A program made the translations under genes and the position numbers. A DNA stretch of 64,000 bases, from the NCBI RefSeq assembly GCF_003586285.1, contig NZ_QUBR01000001.1, forward strand, positions 992,001 through 1,056,000, given 5' to 3'. Position 1 is the first letter of the stretch. Every line of letters starts with the position of its first letter. This document shows positions 3,971 through 49,389 of this stretch, one piece after another. A model generated the notes under the pieces. That model was not told the origin of the DNA, did not search any database, and saw nothing but the letters and a program-made list of their open reading frames with translations. Source of the stretch: Aeromicrobium endophyticum (GTDB lineage: Bacteria; Actinomycetota; Actinomycetes; Propionibacteriales; Nocardioidaceae).

Positions 3971-3995
3971 GGTTTGGACACGCGCGCCAAGGGTA
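3971..3995 (+). promoter_or_regulatory. SigB/SigF-type promoter
   Basis: GGTTT at 3971-3975, a 15-base spacer, then GGGTA at 3991-3995. This matches the known actinobacterial SigF/SigB promoter pattern (GGTTT, 14-16 bases, GGGTA) at every position. It points at the gene starting at 4087, with a predicted untranslated leader of about 80 bases. A SigB/SigF-type sigma factor gene lies 0.9 kb away. Confidence 0.65.
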
Positions 3996-4905: not shown

Positions 4906-5682
4906 CTAGGCGGCGTCGTCGACCGAGGCGCGCACGCGCAGCTGCTCGAGCAGCTTCGACAGGCGGCGCGAGACCTGCATCTGGCTGACACCGACCAGAT
5001 CGGCGATCTCCTGCTGCGTGCGGTCCTCGACGAAGCGCAGGCGCAACAGCTCACGCTCGTCGTCGGTGAGGTCCTGGCACAGGGGGCCCACGGTGACCCA
5101 GTCGTCGATGAAGGCGTAGGCCGGCTCGTCCCACCGCAGGGTCTCGCCCAGCGGCTGGCCGTCCTCGCGCATGGGCTGGTCGAGCGACGTCGGCGAGAAG
5201 CAGCCGCGGGCGGCCATGGCCTCGCGCACGTCGGACTCCGACGCGTCGATGTCGTGCGCGATCTCGGCGACCAGCGGGGTGCGCGAGTCGTTCTGGAGGC
5301 GACGCTCGGACGCTGCGGTGATGTCGGCCTGCATCTGCTGGATGCGACGGGGAGGGCGCACGCTCCAGCAGTGGTCGCGGAAGTGCTTCTTGATCTCGCC
5401 CAGGATCGTCACCGTCGCGAACGGGACGAACTCGCCGCGGTCGTGGTGGAAGCCGCGGATGGCCTTGACCAGGGCAAAGTTGGCGACCTGCACGAGGTCG
5501 TCGCGGTCGACACCGCGGCCCGCGTAGCGACCGGCCAGGTGACGCGCGAGCCCGAGGTGACGGCGGACGACCTCGTCCTCGATGCGTGCGCGCTCGACGG
5601 GCGATGCGGCCGCCGCGGCCTGGAGCTGTGCGGCGGTGTCGTCGGGGTGGATCTGGGCGACTTGCGTGGGAGCAGAATTCAC
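4906..5682 (-). CDS. SigB/SigF/SigG-family RNA polymerase sigma factor
   Basis: A 258-residue alternative sigma factor of group 3 (stress/sporulation type). Region 2 is seen as VVRRHLGLARHLAGRY and GVDRDDLVQVANFALVKA, region 3 around the PPRRIQQMQADIT stretch, and region 4 as the C-terminal helix-turn-helix RTQQEIADLVGVSQMQVSRR. Sigma factors of this type are normally held by a serine-kinase anti-sigma factor, released by a STAS protein, and switched by a PP2C phosphatase; the last two are encoded 2-5 kb away (7991-10599). I chose the GTG at 5680-5682, preceded by GAGAGAG; ATG starts at 5709 and 5742 would lengthen it. No anti-sigma gene is adjacent. Confidence 0.85.
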   Translation of the reverse strand: MNSAPTQVAQIHPDDTAAQLQAAAAASPVERARIEDEVVRRHLGLARHLAGRYAGRGVDRDDLVQVANFALVKAIRGFHHDRGEFVPFATVTILGEIKKHFRDHCWSVRPPRRIQQMQADITAASERRLQNDSRTPLVAEIAHDIDASESDVREAMAARGCFSPTSLDQPMREDGQPLGETLRWDEPAYAFIDDWVTVGPLCQDLTDDERELLRLRFVEDRTQQEIADLVGVSQMQVSRRLSKLLEQLRVRASVDDAA

Positions 5683-5776
5683 GATGACTCTCTCAATGTC
5701 TCGATCCATTGCGGGCTTCTGCTCAACCAGCTGTCTCACCATCGCACCTCGGGGCAAGGTTGCGCAAGACTTGTTC

Positions 5777-5842: not shown

Positions 5843-5868
5843 GGTTTCGTCCATCGCGACCCGGGTAC
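5843..5868 (+). promoter_or_regulatory. SigB/SigF-type promoter of the LigD-like polymerase gene
   Basis: GGTTT at 5843-5847, a 15-base spacer and GGGTAC at 5863-5868. Sequence and spacing are the same as in the promoter at 3971. The predicted start lies about 40 bases before the ATG at 5918, which places the end-joining polymerase under the stress sigma factor encoded divergently next door. Confidence 0.7.
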
Positions 5869-7990: not shown

Positions 7991-10270
7991 GTGATCCCTG
8001 ACCTGAGTCGTGCCGCAGCCCACACCCCGGCCTACTCGACGCCCGACCTGACCAACTGCGAGCGCGAGCCGATCCACATCCCGGGCGCCATCCAACCCCA
8101 CGGTCTGCTGCTCGCGCTCGACGCCGAGCACCGGGTCGTGACGGTGTCGCGCAACTGCGCGCAGATGCTGGGTCGTCCCGCGCACGACCTCATCGGCACC
8201 GACGTCGGCGACGCGATGGGGCAGGAGCCCGCGGCGTCCGTCGCCCAGGCCGTGGCCGCCGACGACATGAGCACGCCCATCCGCACCACGATGCCTCCCG
8301 GCCACGGCGACCTGGCCGGCGAGGAGGTCGACATCATCGTGCACCGCTCCGGCGGGCGCATCGTGGTCGAGGTCGAGCCCGTCACCGTGCCGGTGCCGAG
8401 CCAGACCGTGTCGTACCGCTCGGCGCGCGCCGCCGTCACGCGGCTCACGCAGTCGTCGACAACCGCCGAGCTCTGCCAGCAGCTCGCCTCCGAGATCCGG
8501 CACCTGACGGGCTTCGACCGCGTCATGGTCTACCGCTTCGACCCCGAGTGGAACGGCGAGGTCGTGGCCGAGGACCGCCGCGACGACCTCAACCCCTTCC
8601 TCGGCCTGCACTACCCCTCCACCGACATCCCGGCCCAGGCGCGGCGCCTCTACACCGTCAACTGGACCCGGCTGATCGCCGACATCGAGTACGCGCCCGT
8701 GGCGCTCGAGCCGGTCATCGACCCGTCGACGGGGGCTCCGCTCGACCTGTCGCACTCGGTGCTGCGCAGCGTGTCGCCGATCCACATCGAGTACCTGTCA
8801 CACATGGGCGTCTCGGCGTCGATGTCGGTGTCGATGGTCAAGGACGGGCTGCTCTGGGGGCTCGTCGCGTGCCACCACTACTCCGGGCCGTTGCGCGTGC
8901 CGTACGACGCCCGGTCGGCCGCCGAGTTCCTCGGCCAGACCGCGTCGCAGCTGATCGACGACCGCGAGCGTGCCGACACCCACACCGACGAGCTGCGCGC
9001 CAGCGTCACCCTCGCACGCCTCACGGCCGCCCTCGCGGCCGACACCCGCCCGCTCTACGACGCCCTGCTCGACGACCAGCGCCTGCTCGAGCTCGTCGAC
9101 GCGCAGGGCGCGGCCTTGTATGTCGACGGTCGCCTGCTGACGGTCGGCGAGGTGCCGTCGGAGGCCGATCTGCACCTCATCGCGCGCCAGCTCGACGGGC
9201 CCGCCGGACAGCCGACGGCGTCCGACCACCTGAGCGTGCTGGCGCCCGAGCTGGAGCACATCGCCGACGTCGCCGCCGGTGCCCTGCACGTGGGCAACGG
9301 TCCCGACCGCTGGCTCATGTGGCTGCGCCCCGAGATCGAGCGCACCGTCGACTGGGGCGGCGATCCCACCAACAAGGCCCTCGCGCTCGCCGAGAACCCC
9401 AACGTCCGGCTGAGCCCCCGCAAGTCGTTCGCGAAGTGGCGCCAGGTCGTGCGCGGACGCAGCGCGCCCTGGCTCGCGTGGCAGGTCGCCGCGGCCCAGA
9501 GCCTGCGCGAGCACCTGTCGAGCGAGCTGCTGCGCCGCAGCCAGGAGCACACCGCGATCGCCGAGTCGCTGCAGCGCACCGTGGTGCTCGAGGAGGCGCC
9601 GACGGTCGAGGGGCACGACGTCCTCGCCCGCTACCGTCCGGCCAAGGGCAGCCAGCTCGGCGGCGACTGGTGGGACGCCTTCCACCTGCCCGACGGGCGC
9701 TTCGTCGTCAGCGTCGGCGACGTCGCCGGGCACGGCGTCACGGCCGCGACGGCGATGGCGCAGGCGCGCACGGCGCTGCGTGCCTACATGTTCGACGGCC
9801 ACTCCCCCGCCGCGTGCCTCGACCGTCTCGACGTGCTGGTGCAGTCGCTGCTGCCGGGCCAGACCGCGACGGCCGTGGTGGTGGCGCTCGATCCCCGCAC
9901 CGGCGAGGTCGAGCTCGCCAACGCTGGCCACCCGCCCCTGCTGCTGCTGTCGGGCGACGAGGTGAGGGTGATGCCGCACGCGGGTCGTCCCCTGCTGGGC
10001 GTGGCGCACGGCGAGGCACGCACCGACCGCCTGACGCTGGCCGACGGCGACATCCTGCTGGCCTACACCGACGGCCTGGTCGAGCGCCGCGGCGTCGAGA
10101 TCGACGTCTCGATCGACAGCCTCGCGGCCGCGGCCGCGCACTCCGACCACACCGACACCTTGGACGCCTGGATCGACGACCTGCTGACGGCCGTCCCGGG
10201 CACGCTCGACGACGACCTGACGGTGGTCGCCCTGCGCCGCTGCACCGACCTCACGGGAGAGCCTGCATGA
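7991..10270 (+). CDS. Bacteriophytochrome with SpoIIE/PP2C phosphatase output
   Basis: A 759-residue red/far-red light sensor. PAS-like domain (about 20-130) with the bilin-attachment Cys23 in LTNCEREPIHIPG, as in Deinococcus-type bacteriophytochromes; GAF domain (about 150-310) with the STDIPAQARRLY motif and the bilin-contacting histidine in SPIHIEYLSHMG; PHY domain (about 320-510). The usual histidine kinase is replaced by a PP2C/SpoIIE phosphatase (about 555-750) with its metal-binding acidic motifs intact: GGDWWD, VGDVAGHG and YTDGLVE. It probably dephosphorylates the STAS protein encoded next in an ATGA overlap, feeding a partner-switching sigma pathway. The GTG at 7991 is the only start close to the PAS domain. 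Confidence 0.92.
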   Translation: MIPDLSRAAAHTPAYSTPDLTNCEREPIHIPGAIQPHGLLLALDAEHRVVTVSRNCAQMLGRPAHDLIGTDVGDAMGQEPAASVAQAVAADDMSTPIRTTMPPGHGDLAGEEVDIIVHRSGGRIVVEVEPVTVPVPSQTVSYRSARAAVTRLTQSSTTAELCQQLASEIRHLTGFDRVMVYRFDPEWNGEVVAEDRRDDLNPFLGLHYPSTDIPAQARRLYTVNWTRLIADIEYAPVALEPVIDPSTGAPLDLSHSVLRSVSPIHIEYLSHMGVSASMSVSMVKDGLLWGLVACHHYSGPLRVPYDARSAAEFLGQTASQLIDDRERADTHTDELRASVTLARLTAALAADTRPLYDALLDDQRLLELVDAQGAALYVDGRLLTVGEVPSEADLHLIARQLDGPAGQPTASDHLSVLAPELEHIADVAAGALHVGNGPDRWLMWLRPEIERTVDWGGDPTNKALALAENPNVRLSPRKSFAKWRQVVRGRSAPWLAWQVAAAQSLREHLSSELLRRSQEHTAIAESLQRTVVLEEAPTVEGHDVLARYRPAKGSQLGGDWWDAFHLPDGRFVVSVGDVAGHGVTAATAMAQARTALRAYMFDGHSPAACLDRLDVLVQSLLPGQTATAVVVALDPRTGEVELANAGHPPLLLLSGDEVRVMPHAGRPLLGVAHGEARTDRLTLADGDILLAYTDGLVERRGVEIDVSIDSLAAAAAHSDHTDTLDAWIDDLLTAVPGTLDDDLTVVALRRCTDLTGEPA

Positions 10271-10599
10271 GCCTGACCATCGCCGATCGCGTGCGCGGCG
10301 AGTTCGACGTGATCGAGCTCGCCGGCGACATCGACGTCGAGACCGCACGCACCCTGCGCGCCCACATCGTCGAGCGCTTCAGCGACTCCAACGCCCGGGT
10401 CGTGGTCGACCTGACCGGCGTCGACTTCATGGACTCGTCGGGCCTGGGCGCGCTGGTCAGCGGGTGGCAGCTGACGCGCGACGACGGCACGTTCCGCATC
10501 GCGGGCGCCAACTCGATCGTCCGTCGCGTGCTGTCGGTCACCGGCATGGAAGACGTCTTCGCGCTCTACGAGAGCGTCGACGACGCCACCAGCGACTGA
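10267..10599 (+). CDS. STAS-domain anti-sigma factor antagonist
   Basis: A 110-residue SpoIIAA/RsbV-type protein. The core motif VDFMDSSGLGALV contains the serine (residue 57 or 58) that anti-sigma kinases phosphorylate; unphosphorylated protein sequesters the anti-sigma factor and frees sigma. Its ATG overlaps the stop of the phytochrome-phosphatase gene, so the two are translationally coupled and expected to work as enzyme and substrate. The SigB/SigF-type sigma gene at 4906-5682 is a natural final target, although no anti-sigma kinase is found in the window. Confidence 0.92.
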   Translation: MSLTIADRVRGEFDVIELAGDIDVETARTLRAHIVERFSDSNARVVVDLTGVDFMDSSGLGALVSGWQLTRDDGTFRIAGANSIVRRVLSVTGMEDVFALYESVDDATSD

Positions 10600-28004: not shown

Positions 28005-28015
28005 CTCGGTGTCAC
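28005..28015. promoter_or_regulatory. Operator-like half site shared with the MFS/TetR operator
   Basis: CTCGGTGTCAC (28005-28015), preceded by the same C, repeats 12 bases of the right arm of the TetR operator at 25731-25741. It sits between the divergent adenylate cyclase and cNMP-binding genes, near another short dyad (GGTGT-N8-ACACC, about 27981-27998). This may be cross-regulation or coincidence. Confidence 0.35.
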
Positions 28016-28069
28016 GGCCGTACTCCCACCCCGGCAACACGCCGAGCCCTCCGACCGAAGGACCCCGTC

Positions 28070-28480
28070 ATGGCACCCAAGCAGAAGGCCGACCCGGACG
28101 TCGTGAAGACGCTGAGCGAGCACACCTCGTTCGACAAGTCGCTGGTCAAGCGCCTCGCCACGGTCGGCAACGCCGTCAACATCCCGCAGGGCTGGTCGGT
28201 CATCATGGAGACCACACCGGCCGACTCGGCCTACATCGTGCTCGACGGCACGGTCGAGATCCGCAAGGGTGGCCAGACCATCGCCGAGCTCGGCCCCGGC
28301 GACGTCTTCGGCGAGATCGCGCTGGTCAACCACAGCCTGCGCAACGCCTCGGCGGTCGCGGCGTCCCAGATCCGCGTGCTGCGTCTCGGCGAGGACGCCA
28401 TCGCGTCGTTGCTCGAGCACGACACGGCCTTCGCCGACACCCTGCGCTCCAACGCCGAGAGCCGCATCCAGACCAGCTGA
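28070..28480 (+). CDS. Stand-alone cyclic-nucleotide-binding domain protein
   Basis: A 136-residue protein consisting of a single cNMP-binding beta-roll. The phosphate-binding cassette is recognisable as GDVFGEIALVNHSLRNASAVA, in which FGEIAL and the arginine in the LRNAS turn contact the cyclic nucleotide. There is no helix-turn-helix, so it is not a Crp regulator; it may be an effector module binding another protein. Divergent location next to an adenylate cyclase suggests cAMP as ligand. It is followed by a terminator hairpin. Confidence 0.85.
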   Translation: MAPKQKADPDVVKTLSEHTSFDKSLVKRLATVGNAVNIPQGWSVIMETTPADSAYIVLDGTVEIRKGGQTIAELGPGDVFGEIALVNHSLRNASAVAASQIRVLRLGEDAIASLLEHDTAFADTLRSNAESRIQTS

Positions 28481-28485
28481 TCGCA

Positions 28486-28503
28486 CCGGCGTCGCGGCGC
28501 CGG
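28486..28503 (+). terminator. Terminator-like hairpin
   Basis: CCGGCG-TCGCGG-CGCCGG, followed by GATTTGTTG, lies 5 bases after the cNMP-binding gene stop. The short T-containing tail supports a terminator. Confidence 0.5.
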
Positions 28504-28620
28504 GATTTGTTGTCCGCGGCACACAAATGGTGGGGTCGCGAGGCCTCCGCCGACGGTGGTTACCCTTCGGTGAAATGCGCTGCACGCAGGCGCGTTCATG
28601 ACACGAGAGGCGAGCACGCG

Positions 28621-30456
28621 ATGGCAGACGTTGAGGCAGCACTGGATCAGGCCGGACTCACCAACCCCCACGTGCGCGAGTACGTGCGCTACTGGGCAGA
28701 CCTGACGGGCGCCGAGCGGGTCGAGGTCGTCAGCGCGTCCGACGACGCCCGGCTGGCCGAGGAAGCACTGGCGGCCGGCGAGCTCCAGCCCGCCGGCGAG
28801 GGGCTCTACTACTCGCGCAGCTACCACAAGGACACCGCCCGCTCCGAGGAGCGGACGATCGTCGCGACGAGCAACCCGAGCGATGCGGGCGTCTACAACA
28901 ACTGGCGTCCGTCGTCGGAGATGAAGCCGCTGCTCGAGGGCAAGATGCGCGGCGCCTCGGCCGGCAAGACGATGTACGTCGTCCCGTACCTGATGGCACC
29001 TCCCGGCTCCCCGCTCGAGGCGTACGCGGCCGGCGTCGAGCTGACCGACTCGCGCACCGTGGTCATGCACATGATCCGCATGGCCCGCGTCGGCATCGAC
29101 TACATCAACGAGCTCGCCGACCCCGACAGCTTTGTGCGCGCCGTCCACGTGACCGGCGACCTCGAGAACCTCGGCCACGGCACCGACGACGACGCGCGCT
29201 ACTTCGTGACGGTCGCCGACGAGCGCACGATCCTGCACTTCGGCTCGTCGTACGGCGGCAACGCGCTGCTCGGCAAGATCGCGCACGGCCTGCGCCAGGC
29301 GGCGTACGACGGCTGGGCGTCCGGCAAGTTCCTGTCGGAGCAGTTCATGCTGCTCGGCATCACCGACAAGGAGACCGGCAAGAAGTACCACATCTGCGGC
29401 GGCTTCCCGAGTGCGTCGGGCAAGACCAACCTGGCCATGACGCTGGCTCCCGACGCCCTGGGCGACCGCTACTACGTCGACTTCTACGGCGACGACATCG
29501 CGTGGCTCTGGGTCGACGAGAACGACGGCAAGCTCTACGGCATGAACCCCGAGTTCGGCGTGTTCGGCGTCGCCAAGGACACCAACGAGGCCACCAACCC
29601 GGGCGCGCTGCACTCGGTCGACGCGGGCACCGGCGCGATCTTCACCAACATCGCCTACAACCCCGACACCCAAGAGGTCTGGTGGGAGGGCAAGACGCCC
29701 AACCCGCCCGAGGACGTCACGGGCTGGGAGGACTGGAAGGGCGAGAAGATCTCCGAGCGTGCCGAGGGCGACGACGCACCGTGGGCGCACCCCAACAGCC
29801 GCTTCACCACGACGCTGTCGAACGTCCCCAACGTCGCTCCCGACTTCAACAGCCCCCAGGGCGTGCCGATCGACGCGATCATCTTCGGTGGACGCACCCG
29901 CGACCGCGAGCCGCTGATCCGCGCGATCACCGACCTCGCCGAGGGCGTCTACGACGGCCTGACGCTGGGCGCCGAGGCCACGTTCGCCGCCGAGGGCGTC
30001 GACGGCCAGCTGCGCTACGACCCGATGTCGATGCGTCCGTTCATGTCGTACCCCGAGGGCGCCTACGCGGCCCAGTGGCTCAAGATCATCGGCGATGCCA
30101 AGGAGGCGCCGCTGTTCGCGCACGTCAACTGGTTCCAGCGCGGCGACGACGGTCGCTTCCTGTGGCCCGGCTACCGCGACAACCTGCGTCCGCTGCTGTG
30201 GCTCATGCAGCTCAAGGCCGGTGAGGTCTCCGGACGCTCGACGCCGGTCGGCATCATCCCGACGCGCGAGGAGCTCAACCTCGAGGGACTCGAGATCGAC
30301 TCGGACGACCTCGACACGATCCTGACGATCGACAACGCGCGCTGGCAGCAGGAGATCGCCAACCGCGAGGTGCACCTGACGGCGTTCCACGACCTGCCCG
30401 AGGAGATCTGGGAGGCGCACCGCCGCGTCAAGGCCGACCTCGAGGCCGACGCCTGA
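28621..30456 (+). CDS. Divergent GTP-type phosphoenolpyruvate carboxykinase paralogue
   Basis: A 611-residue protein homologous along its whole length to GTP-type PEP carboxykinase (oxaloacetate + GTP to PEP + CO2 + GDP). Shared landmarks: [51 protein letters not shown] and HVNWFQRGDDGRFLWPGYRDN. By eye alignment to the canonical paralogue at 47566, key residues differ: the hyper-reactive P-loop cysteine is Ser266 (FPSASGKT), the metal-ligand lysine position after GK is Ile220, and the metal-ligand histidine position reads Gln241 (SEQF versus AEHM). The P-loop lysine and the aspartates remain. The family is clear; activity, nucleotide and direction are uncertain. It stands alone with its own leader. 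Confidence 0.85.
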   Translation: MADVEAALDQAGLTNPHVREYVRYWADLTGAERVEVVSASDDARLAEEALAAGELQPAGEGLYYSRSYHKDTARSEERTIVATSNPSDAGVYNNWRPSSEMKPLLEGKMRGASAGKTMYVVPYLMAPPGSPLEAYAAGVELTDSRTVVMHMIRMARVGIDYINELADPDSFVRAVHVTGDLENLGHGTDDDARYFVTVADERTILHFGSSYGGNALLGKIAHGLRQAAYDGWASGKFLSEQFMLLGITDKETGKKYHICGGFPSASGKTNLAMTLAPDALGDRYYVDFYGDDIAWLWVDENDGKLYGMNPEFGVFGVAKDTNEATNPGALHSVDAGTGAIFTNIAYNPDTQEVWWEGKTPNPPEDVTGWEDWKGEKISERAEGDDAPWAHPNSRFTTTLSNVPNVAPDFNSPQGVPIDAIIFGGRTRDREPLIRAITDLAEGVYDGLTLGAEATFAAEGVDGQLRYDPMSMRPFMSYPEGAYAAQWLKIIGDAKEAPLFAHVNWFQRGDDGRFLWPGYRDNLRPLLWLMQLKAGEVSGRSTPVGIIPTREELNLEGLEIDSDDLDTILTIDNARWQQEIANREVHLTAFHDLPEEIWEAHRRVKADLEADA

Positions 30457-47297: not shown

Positions 47298-47565
47298 ACA
47301 CCCCGTAGGGCCTCGCCAACCTTACCGTGCCCGCCCGCTGAGCCGAAATCGGGCTCCCCTACCCACCTGACATAGGTCTACTCATGTGATCAACTCCACC
47401 GTCGAACGCATATCCCCGGCGGTGCGATCACCCGTAACGTGACACGAATCGCCACCGCCCGTCGGTGACGATTTTTCATCACACATCAGCTACCCGGGGC
47501 CCCGATGGTCCCAGGAGTGCGAGTCAATGCGCTTGGCCCGCGATGCGCGAGAAGGAAAAGTTCAC

Positions 47566-49389
47566 ATGTCTGCAGACACCGCCGTCCAGTCCACCTACCA
47601 GTCGTCCTACGCCAAGCTCCAGAGCTGGGTCGACGAGGTCGCCGCCCTCACCCAGCCAGACGAGATCTACTGGTGCGAGGGAACCCCGGAAGAGTGGGTC
47701 CGCATCACCGACCGCCTCGTCGAGGCCGGCACCTTCATCCGTCTCAACGACGAGAAGAAGCCCAACTCCTTCTACTGCGCCTCCGACCCCAACGACGTCG
47801 CCCGCGTCGAGGACCGCACCTACATCTGCTCGGTCGACGAGAAGGACGCCGGTCCCACCAACAACTGGATGGCCCCCGACGACATGAAGCAGGTCATGCG
47901 TGGGCTGTACGACGGCTGCATGCGCGGACGCACCATGTACGTCATCCCGTTCGTGATGGGTCACCTCGAGTCCGACCACCCGATGTTCGGCGTCGAGATC
48001 ACCGACTCGGCCTACGTCGTCGCATCGATGACCGTCATGGCGCGCATCGGCCGCGACGTCCTCGACAAGATCGAGCAGACCGAGGCCGACTACGTGCCGG
48101 CGCTGCACTCGTTCGGCGCACCGCTCGTCGACGGCGCCACCGACGTCGCGTGGCCGTGCAACGACACCAAGTACATCGTCCAGTTCCCCGAGGAGCGGAC
48201 GATCTGGTCGTACGGCTCGAGCTACGGCGGCAACGCCCTGCTGGGCAAGAAGTGCTACGCGCTGCGCATCGCCTCGGTGATGGGCCGCGACGAGGGCTGG
48301 ATGGCCGAGCACATGCTGATCCTCAAGCTCACCAACCCCGAGGGCGTGGTCAAGTACATCGCCGCGGGCTTCCCGAGCGCGTGTGGCAAGACCAACCTCG
48401 CGATGGTCGAGCCGACGATCCCGGGCTGGACGGTCGAGACGATCGGCGACGACATCGCCTGGATCCGCGTCGGCGCCGACGGACGTCTGTACGCCGTCAA
48501 CCCCGAGTTCGGCCTGTTCGGCGTCGCGCCAGGCACCGGCTGGGACACCAACGCCAATGCGATGCGCACGATCGAGCAGGGCAACTCGGTGTTCACCAAC
48601 GTCGCCCTGACCGATGACGGCGACGTCTGGTGGGAGGGCATGACCGACGAGCCGCCGGCCCACCTCACCGACTGGAAGGGCAACGACTGGACCCCCGACA
48701 GCGACCAGCTGTCGAGCCACGCCAACAGCCGCTTCTGCACCCCGATCAAGCAGTGCCCGACGCTCGCCGACGAGTACGACGACCCCAACGGCGTCCCGCT
48801 CGACGCGATCCTGTTCGGCGGCCGTCGCAAGACGACGATCCCGCTGGTGACCGAGGCGCGCGACTGGACGCACGGCACGTTCATGGGCGCCACGCTGTCG
48901 TCCGAGACGACCGCTGCCGCCACCGGCGCGGTCGGTGTCGTGCGCCGTGACCCCATGGCGATGCTGCCGTTCATCGGCTACGACGCGGGCGACTACTTCG
49001 GTCACTGGATCACCATGGCCAAGAACAACGACGAGTCGAAGTTCCCGAAGATCTTCTACGTCAACTGGTTCCGTCGCGACGACGACGGCGGCTTCCTGTG
49101 GCCGGGCTTCGGCGAGAACAGCCGCATCCTGAAGTACGTCATCGACCGCGTCGAGGGCAAGGTCGAGGCGCACGAGACGCCGATCGGCCTCGTGCCGCCG
49201 ACGTCGTCGATCGACACCGACGGTCTCGACGTCACCGAGGAGCAGCTCGCCAAGGCGCTCGCGGTCGACACCGACGAGTGGGCCGCCGAGCTGCCGCAGA
49301 TCAACGAGTGGTTCGAGAAGTTCGGCGACACCCTGCCGGCCGTCCTCTGGACCGAGCTCGACGGCCTCAAGGCCCGCCTCGGCCTGTAG
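47566..49389 (+). CDS. pckG: Phosphoenolpyruvate carboxykinase (GTP)
   Basis: A 607-residue canonical GTP-type PEPCK, catalysing oxaloacetate + GTP to PEP + CO2 + GDP at the entry to gluconeogenesis. All hallmarks are intact: [11 protein letters not shown], metal-ligand Lys229 in [13 protein letters not shown], metal-ligand His249 in WMAEHMLI, P-loop FPSACGKTN with Cys273, [17 protein letters not shown], and [21 protein letters not shown]. It resembles Streptomyces enzymes over its full length. The ATG at 47566 follows AAGGAAAAG. The 268-base leader region between tRNA-Arg and this gene is AT-richer and holds its promoter; no riboswitch is recognised there. Confidence 0.96.

Follow-up and report, generated by a model that had tools for sequence, protein, structure and literature searches.

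A bacteriophytochrome-SpoIIE phosphatase gene coupled to a STAS gene in Aeromicrobium endophyticum: a candidate light input to a partner switch

How might a red/far-red photoreceptor whose output domain is a phosphatase be connected to the stress response of an actinomycete? This question is raised by two overlapping genes in a 64,000-nucleotide stretch of the 4.03 Mb genome of Aeromicrobium endophyticum (contig NZ_QUBR01000001.1, G000:C1:992001-1056000; hereafter the window, to which coordinates refer unless a contig or locus is named). The first gene (7991..10270, forward strand, 759 aa, GTG start and TGA stop) encodes a bacteriophytochrome fused to a SpoIIE-type phosphatase, as supported by its open reading frame, its Pfam domains and 91 intact relatives; the second (10267..10599, forward strand, 110 aa) encodes a STAS protein of the anti-anti-sigma type. 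An initial annotation, made from the sequence alone, had treated 7991-10599 as one module, which holds for the two genes as a pair, position 10599 being the end of the STAS gene, and had proposed that red/far-red light might directly gate the general stress sigma factor. We consider it probable, with some reserve, that the pair is a red/far-red photoreceptor phosphatase feeding a partner switch.

The sensory half of the fusion shows the PAS-GAF-PHY order typical of a bacteriophytochrome core, with each domain scoring over its Pfam cut-off on the forward strand: a PAS_2 domain (8057..8383, residues 23-131) with a biliverdin-type cysteine, Cys23; a bilin-binding GAF domain (8468..8953, residues 160-321) containing D212-I213-P214, H265 and H295; and a PHY domain (9035..9541, residues 349-517) whose tongue carries W455-G-G and P476RKSF480. 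These residues correspond to the N-terminal Cys, DIP, pocket-His and PRxSF tongue motifs of bacteriophytochromes. The best solved-chain match of the core was Stigmatella 6bap (E=1.5e-118, residues 17-519), and a fold search gave only phytochromes and phytochrome constructs among the 50 matches listed, a search dominated by the sensor and set aside as evidence on the phosphatase half. That half is a SpoIIE/PPM domain (9689..10240, forward strand, residues 567-750; PF07228, 1.3e-42, 146 bits), the catalytic GGDWWD motif starting at residue 557, just ahead of the Pfam boundary. All the acidic phosphatase motifs are present (D559/D562, D577, D694 and D741/D742), and the domain score, the conserved metal-site Asp residues and a helical linker preceding the PPM domain place the protein among the SpoIIE/RsbU-type PPM phosphatases. 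Compared with the BphP histidine kinase family NF041576 it scored 364 bits, below 1040, and matched over residues 14-526 only.

Conservation was evaluated on 91 distinct fusions (94 intact sequences minus three duplicates, the broken L050 and L178 being excluded). Cys23, D212-I213-P214, Tyr181, His265, Tyr268 and P476-R477-S479-F480 are present in 91/91, as are D559, D562 and D577 of the phosphatase; His295 is kept in 90, while D694 and D742 are kept in 89, the remaining two rows being gapped. These results bear out the annotated description of a complete core with Cys23, DIP and a bilin-contact His, in which a phosphatase with all its acidic motifs replaces the histidine kinase. Moreover, the spacer between sensor and phosphatase (F480-D559) is nearly fixed, with 78 residues in 86 of the 91 relatives, 77 in four and 93 in one; the distance from C23 to D212, by contrast, varies from 172 to 200 residues. 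In an AlphaFold2 model with a mean pLDDT of 85.9, built on an alignment of 43 of the relatives (45 were chosen for diversity and L051 and L158 were dropped because of irregular match ranges), this spacer contains a single helix from the PHY domain to the phosphatase (residues 496-531, 9476..9583, forward strand; block means of pLDDT 68-94). The layout is the one reported for RsbU-type phosphatases, in which pairing and activation of the PPM domains come about through a helical linker (PMC12143880; this and the other articles cited by PMC number are represented here by excerpts). As a source of bilin, the genome encodes a heme oxygenase (PF01126, 169 bits, C2:1430587-1431177), and biliverdin binding and red/far-red photoconversion of the fusion are predicted from known families.

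The second gene gives the phosphatase a candidate substrate. The STAS protein scored 85.5 bits against TIGR00377 (cut-off 53.45) and has a predicted phospho-acceptor, Ser57, within DSSGLG (codon 10435..10437, forward strand), in a column where Ser is conserved among STAS matches; thus, by score and acceptor, it belongs with the anti-sigma factor antagonists, although against the narrower SpoIIAA equivalog TIGR02886 it reached 55.4 bits, with a cut-off of 114.75. Its closest solved chains include the anti-sigma factor antagonist 4qtp, RsfB, RsbV and SpoIIAA. As annotated, the TGA of the fusion overlaps the ATG of the STAS gene by four nucleotides (ATGA, 10267..10270, forward strand), and Ser57 is the target serine that had been noticed. 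A STAS start at -4 from the fusion stop is available in 11/11 Aeromicrobium pairs (the window, L102-L104, L106-L111 and L178), the overlap being ATGA or GTGA. The acceptor column holds Ser in 17/17 downstream STAS matches, a set that includes the window and the duplicate L034/L102, and also in 15/15 upstream matches on the same strand, 7/7 upstream on the opposite strand and 14/14 located further upstream. The overlap indicates that the fusion and STAS genes are translationally coupled, and their linkage is conserved; the fusion is predicted to dephosphorylate Ser57.

The nearest named relative found, Aeromicrobium sp. Root472D3, has a copy of the fusion (L034) with 86% identity, and a full fusion is present in 78/341 Nocardioidaceae genomes, from 7 of 26 genera, one of the 78 (G031) being broken by a frame change. 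Across the class, 31 of the 394 genomes sampled had a match at E <= 1e-90. In a set of 28 loci, those that are named place the fusion in Nocardioides, Geodermatophilus, Blastococcus, Frankia and one uncultured Armatimonadetes contig, and 10 of the 28 have a phytochrome core lacking the phosphatase. When gene neighbourhoods were counted in 77 Nocardioidaceae loci (the window excluded), a STAS gene lay directly downstream on the same strand in 15, five of which continue with an RsbW-like HATPase gene to form a PHY-STAS-HATPase tandem; in eight loci the STAS gene is directly upstream only, and in four it is within about 3 kb. Some of the loci outside the tandem group also have STAS-HATPase next to PHY, arranged differently. 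In 12/12 Geodermatophilaceae loci of the 28-locus set the fusion follows a STAS gene, from which a HATPase gene diverges (HATPase|STAS-PHY), and both genes were near the fusion in 3/20 further loci of the class. That the receptor is found in other lineages next to STAS genes and genes for RsbW-like kinases, in varying gene orders, supports partner switching, and the annotated reading of the pair as a partner-switching input gains from this, given the conserved, coupled linkage and the kinase carried in the cassette of relatives.

The STAS proteins in different gene orders have about 25-45% identity to those of the window genome, versus 60-80% among Aeromicrobium orthologues. Orthology of the window STAS gene with those beside the Nocardioides and Geodermatophilaceae phytochromes was rejected on this basis, and the low identity suggests that STAS and kinase genes have been recruited to the receptor more than once. 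The other conserved neighbours in the family loci are mostly lineage-specific (transporters, a second SpoIIE gene, heme oxygenase); heme oxygenase lies near the fusion gene in 8/77 family loci plus one further locus (L156, L118, L157, L146, L164, L159, L173, L155 and L243). Among the 30 proteins searched elsewhere in the window, none was light-related.

No kinase gene was found near the window pair, whereas relatives have one adjacent. The annotation had supposed that the kinase must be elsewhere, and a genome search found candidates there: a core standalone RsbW-like protein (C1:1143762-1144166), two accessory standalone ones (C3:144396-144830 and C1:1168033-1168437) and two fused forms, in which the RsbW-like part follows either a SpoIIE domain (C1:417385) or a weak GAF match (C1:1597189). 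The solved chains matched by the C3:144396 protein were RsbW only, and the catalytic Glu and Asn of the N-box are visible in the RsbW-like kinases. The core kinase has a match in 48 of 49 Aeromicrobium genomes; in one of the 48, G030, only accessory copies are matched, at 43-47%. We counted every standalone HATPase other than the core orthologue as an accessory kinase, a grouping that does not form one clade, and found such a kinase in 14/19 phytochrome-positive and 1/30 phytochrome-negative Aeromicrobium genomes (Fisher p=2e-7, relatedness ignored). In seven independent pairs of genomes differing in the phytochrome, the accessory kinase agreed in 5.0 on average, opposed in none and was unchanged in two. 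The genus tree from which these pairs come, of 41 of the 49 genomes (G016, G026, G027, G028, G036, G038, G043 and G045 left out) and built on three marker genes of which one was found in 22 of the 41, requires at least 10 changes for the phytochrome, eight for the STAS gene and eight for the accessory kinase.

In two genomes, G037 (L200:7250-7811) and G035 (L199:7682-8119), the phytochrome-phosphatase gene is decayed by deletions and the adjoining STAS gene is intact; both are without an accessory kinase.

The mechanism that we favour would run as follows. Biliverdin attached to Cys23 would isomerise in light, and the resulting change in the PHY tongue and in helix 496-531 would reposition both PP2C domains of a dimer and alter their activity, the passage of the signal along this helix being proposed by analogy. 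The active form would dephosphorylate its co-translated STAS partner at Ser57, and this partner, once unphosphorylated, might bind an RsbW-like protein and release the client held there, the likeliest client being, by analogy, a sigma factor of the SigF type. Re-phosphorylation of the STAS protein most likely falls to an accessory RsbW-like kinase (C3:144396 and/or C1:1168033); this kinase could be the anti-sigma factor itself, or a reset kinase only, with the core C1:1143762 protein holding the sigma factor. The latter arrangement fits the division of labour in Mycobacterium smegmatis, where RsbW2 only phosphorylates the STAS protein RsfB and RsbW1 binds SigF (PMC10950880).

Several observations weigh against this mechanism. 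Neither a STAS nor a HATPase gene is nearby in 50 of the 77 Nocardioidaceae loci; the fusion is thus not always paired, and other targets are conceivable for some copies. Outside this Aeromicrobium clade no sigma factor gene adjoins the cassette, with the exception of L156, at about 6 kb. The pair test controlled for phylogeny gave a median p of only 0.0625 (range 0.03-0.25). Five genomes have the phytochrome without an accessory kinase: G047, G001 and G014, which lack the STAS gene as well, and the STAS-bearing G017 and G032 (the latter 71% complete), in which none was found; conversely, G030 has accessory kinases without the phytochrome. In addition, the strict HAT_C3 clade has a support of 91/66 and is not starred.

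Some of these genomes suit a simpler circuit, in which the STAS protein, as a light-controlled counterpart of the BldG-type protein, would use only the core RsbW-like C1:1143762, with the accessory kinases playing no part. Within the genome, the BldG-type protein is indeed the nearest paralogue of this STAS protein (39% identity), and the near-universal core kinase is also present in G017 and G032. What tells against this circuit is the co-occurrence of accessory kinases with the phytochrome, in particular that of one group, the HAT_C3/1168 clade: among the 18 genomes with orthologues of the window sigma factor described below, it is found in 6/6 with an intact fusion-STAS pair and 0/12 others. 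We regard the simpler circuit as unlikely, while still giving it real weight.

A second alternative concerns the client. A SigB/SigF-like sigma factor gene (sigma_w; 4906..5757, reverse strand) is a candidate target; it scored 196.4 bits against TIGR02980, below the cut-off of 234.35, although SigBFG is its best-matching family. The annotated boundary of this gene, 4906-5682, is revised here, the open reading frame reaching 5757 from the first possible start and 5682 being an internal one. If the module acted specifically on this sigma factor, light would control the surrounding stress genes and those of non-homologous end joining (NHEJ); the gene lies in an island with Ku, GAF-ANTAR and LigD. 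Proximity speaks for it, with 2-2.4 kb between the sigma gene and the fusion (window, L102, L103) or about 5 kb (L104, L106). Moreover, the window contains two SigF-like boxes (GTTT-N15-GGGTA) versus 0.07 expected, one before LigD-pol (5844-5867) and one before a small gene between GAF-ANTAR and sigma (3972-3995); the box between the sigma gene and LigD is kept in 10/11 relatives' islands, L205 being the exception, which suggests that the sigma factor controls the NHEJ genes.

Co-occurrence and tree evidence led us to reject this sigma factor as the specific target, against what had been annotated as probable, and to retain it as a rival. Its orthologues (67% or more) are found in 7/19 phytochrome-positive and 11/30 phytochrome-negative genomes (Fisher p=1), they are unchanged in 7/7 independent pairs where the phytochrome differs, and the genus tree needs a single change for them, versus the 10 or more of the phytochrome. 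The island occurs without phytochrome in L201-L205, and L108-L111 have the PHY-STAS pair without this sigma gene nearby; no SigF-like box was found ahead of the phytochrome gene. The sigma factor was thus inherited by the clade together with the NHEJ genes; most likely it controls them, and in one clade the phytochrome module has ended up beside that island. Since one sigma factor can take several inputs, it may still be a target, but a second SigF-type sigma gene is present at C1:411906 and nothing singles out one over the other. That the module acts specifically on sigma_w therefore appears doubtful to us.

It is improbable that the phosphatase acts on other or many substrates with the STAS gene as a passenger: the loci devoid of a nearby STAS gene (50 of 77 in the family) would agree with it, and cross-talk would be possible with the genome's four other SpoIIE and three other STAS proteins, yet the four-nucleotide overlap is kept in every Aeromicrobium pair, and the linkage recurs across several families and gene orders with differing STAS and HATPase genes. 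Finally, although sequence cannot reveal light responses, the conservation of Cys23, DIP, both pocket His residues and the PRxSF tongue across the relatives, together with the heme oxygenase, makes it very improbable that the sensor is no light switch in vivo and that its fold serves temperature, redox or haem breakdown.

Returning to the photoreceptor phosphatase that feeds a partner switch, a wider version can be drawn, which we offer as speculative and rather unlikely as a whole: a light-gated two-kinase switch, composed of a dedicated reset kinase of the HAT_C3/1168 clade and the universal core anti-sigma kinase, by which red/far-red light would drive a SigF-type regulon, including NHEJ repair genes, before damage occurs. 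Such a module would be a portable input, assembled on several occasions with differing STAS and kinase genes.

The components of this system are familiar. The PAS-GAF-PHY core, biliverdin-type Cys, pocket residues and PRxSF tongue are shared with Stigmatella SaBphP1 and Deinococcus DrBphP, which differ in having a histidine kinase output instead of a SpoIIE-type phosphatase. The bacteriophytochrome-SpoIIE/PPM architecture is already catalogued, with the same domain order, as one class in a distance tree (PMC9587094), in an article whose subject is the diguanylate cyclases and whose excerpts give no partner genes, spacer or function for the phosphatase class. With the RsbU/RsbP-RsbV-RsbW-SigB pathway of B. 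subtilis our system shares a PP2C domain after an alpha-helical linker, a STAS protein as (here predicted) substrate and an RsbW-like kinase (PMC12143880), while differing in its phytochrome input and in the lack of an adjacent kinase or sigma operon. It is also similar to RsfR-RsfB-RsbW2 with RsbW1-SigF of M. smegmatis in having a PP2C near a STAS protein and, in the arrangement proposed above, separate proteins for resetting and for sigma binding, RsfR being controlled by a receiver domain and a histidine kinase and not by light (PMC10950880). Mycobacterium Rv1364c is another PP2C of a SigF partner switch, in which sensor, PP2C and further domains are in one polypeptide (PMC10950880).

Light has been connected to partner switches before: SigB receives blue light through YtvA, a flavin-based LOV-STAS sensor, and red light raises SigB activity via RsbP/Q by a route left unexplained in the excerpts of PMC3019169, which also state that Listeria and Bacillus have no phytochrome-like protein. 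SpoIIE-type phosphatases and STAS domains are listed among the partners of blue-light receptors (PMC4844311). The open-access literature searched, a scope outside which most subscription papers and all bioRxiv preprints fall, yielded no functional study of a phytochrome-SpoIIE protein. What is new here is the bacteriophytochrome input on a PP2C-STAS switch, with its gene-level wiring.

Other genes of the same genome deserve a mention. A 1255-aa protein (L061:9039-13111; G000:C1:417038-421110) combines PAS, GAF, histidine kinase, receiver, PAS, SpoIIE and RsbW-like domains, and is nearer to the Rv1364c plan than the phytochrome fusion is; it adjoins a STAS gene, a catalase, a ligase-like gene and the second SigF-type sigma gene. 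The BldG-type STAS gene (L065, G000:C1:1586000-1602000) has no RsbW-like partner adjacent and is flanked by what are presumably helicase and H+-pyrophosphatase genes. The window also contains two GTP-type phosphoenolpyruvate carboxykinase genes within 20 kb (28009-30453 and 47527-49386), the former with a long N-terminal extension.

The carriers of the fusion are Nocardioidaceae, Geodermatophilaceae and other actinomycetes, which are not known to photosynthesise. In them the fusion offers a naturally occurring candidate Ser phosphatase under red-light control, and a direct test is possible. Its near-fixed sensor-effector spacer offers a comparison with the phytochrome diguanylate cyclases, whose spacers reportedly fall into several lengths (PMC9587094). 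Red-light effects on SigB-type responses have been reported without a phytochrome (PMC3019169); here a true phytochrome is wired, at the gene level, to the STAS step of a partner switch.

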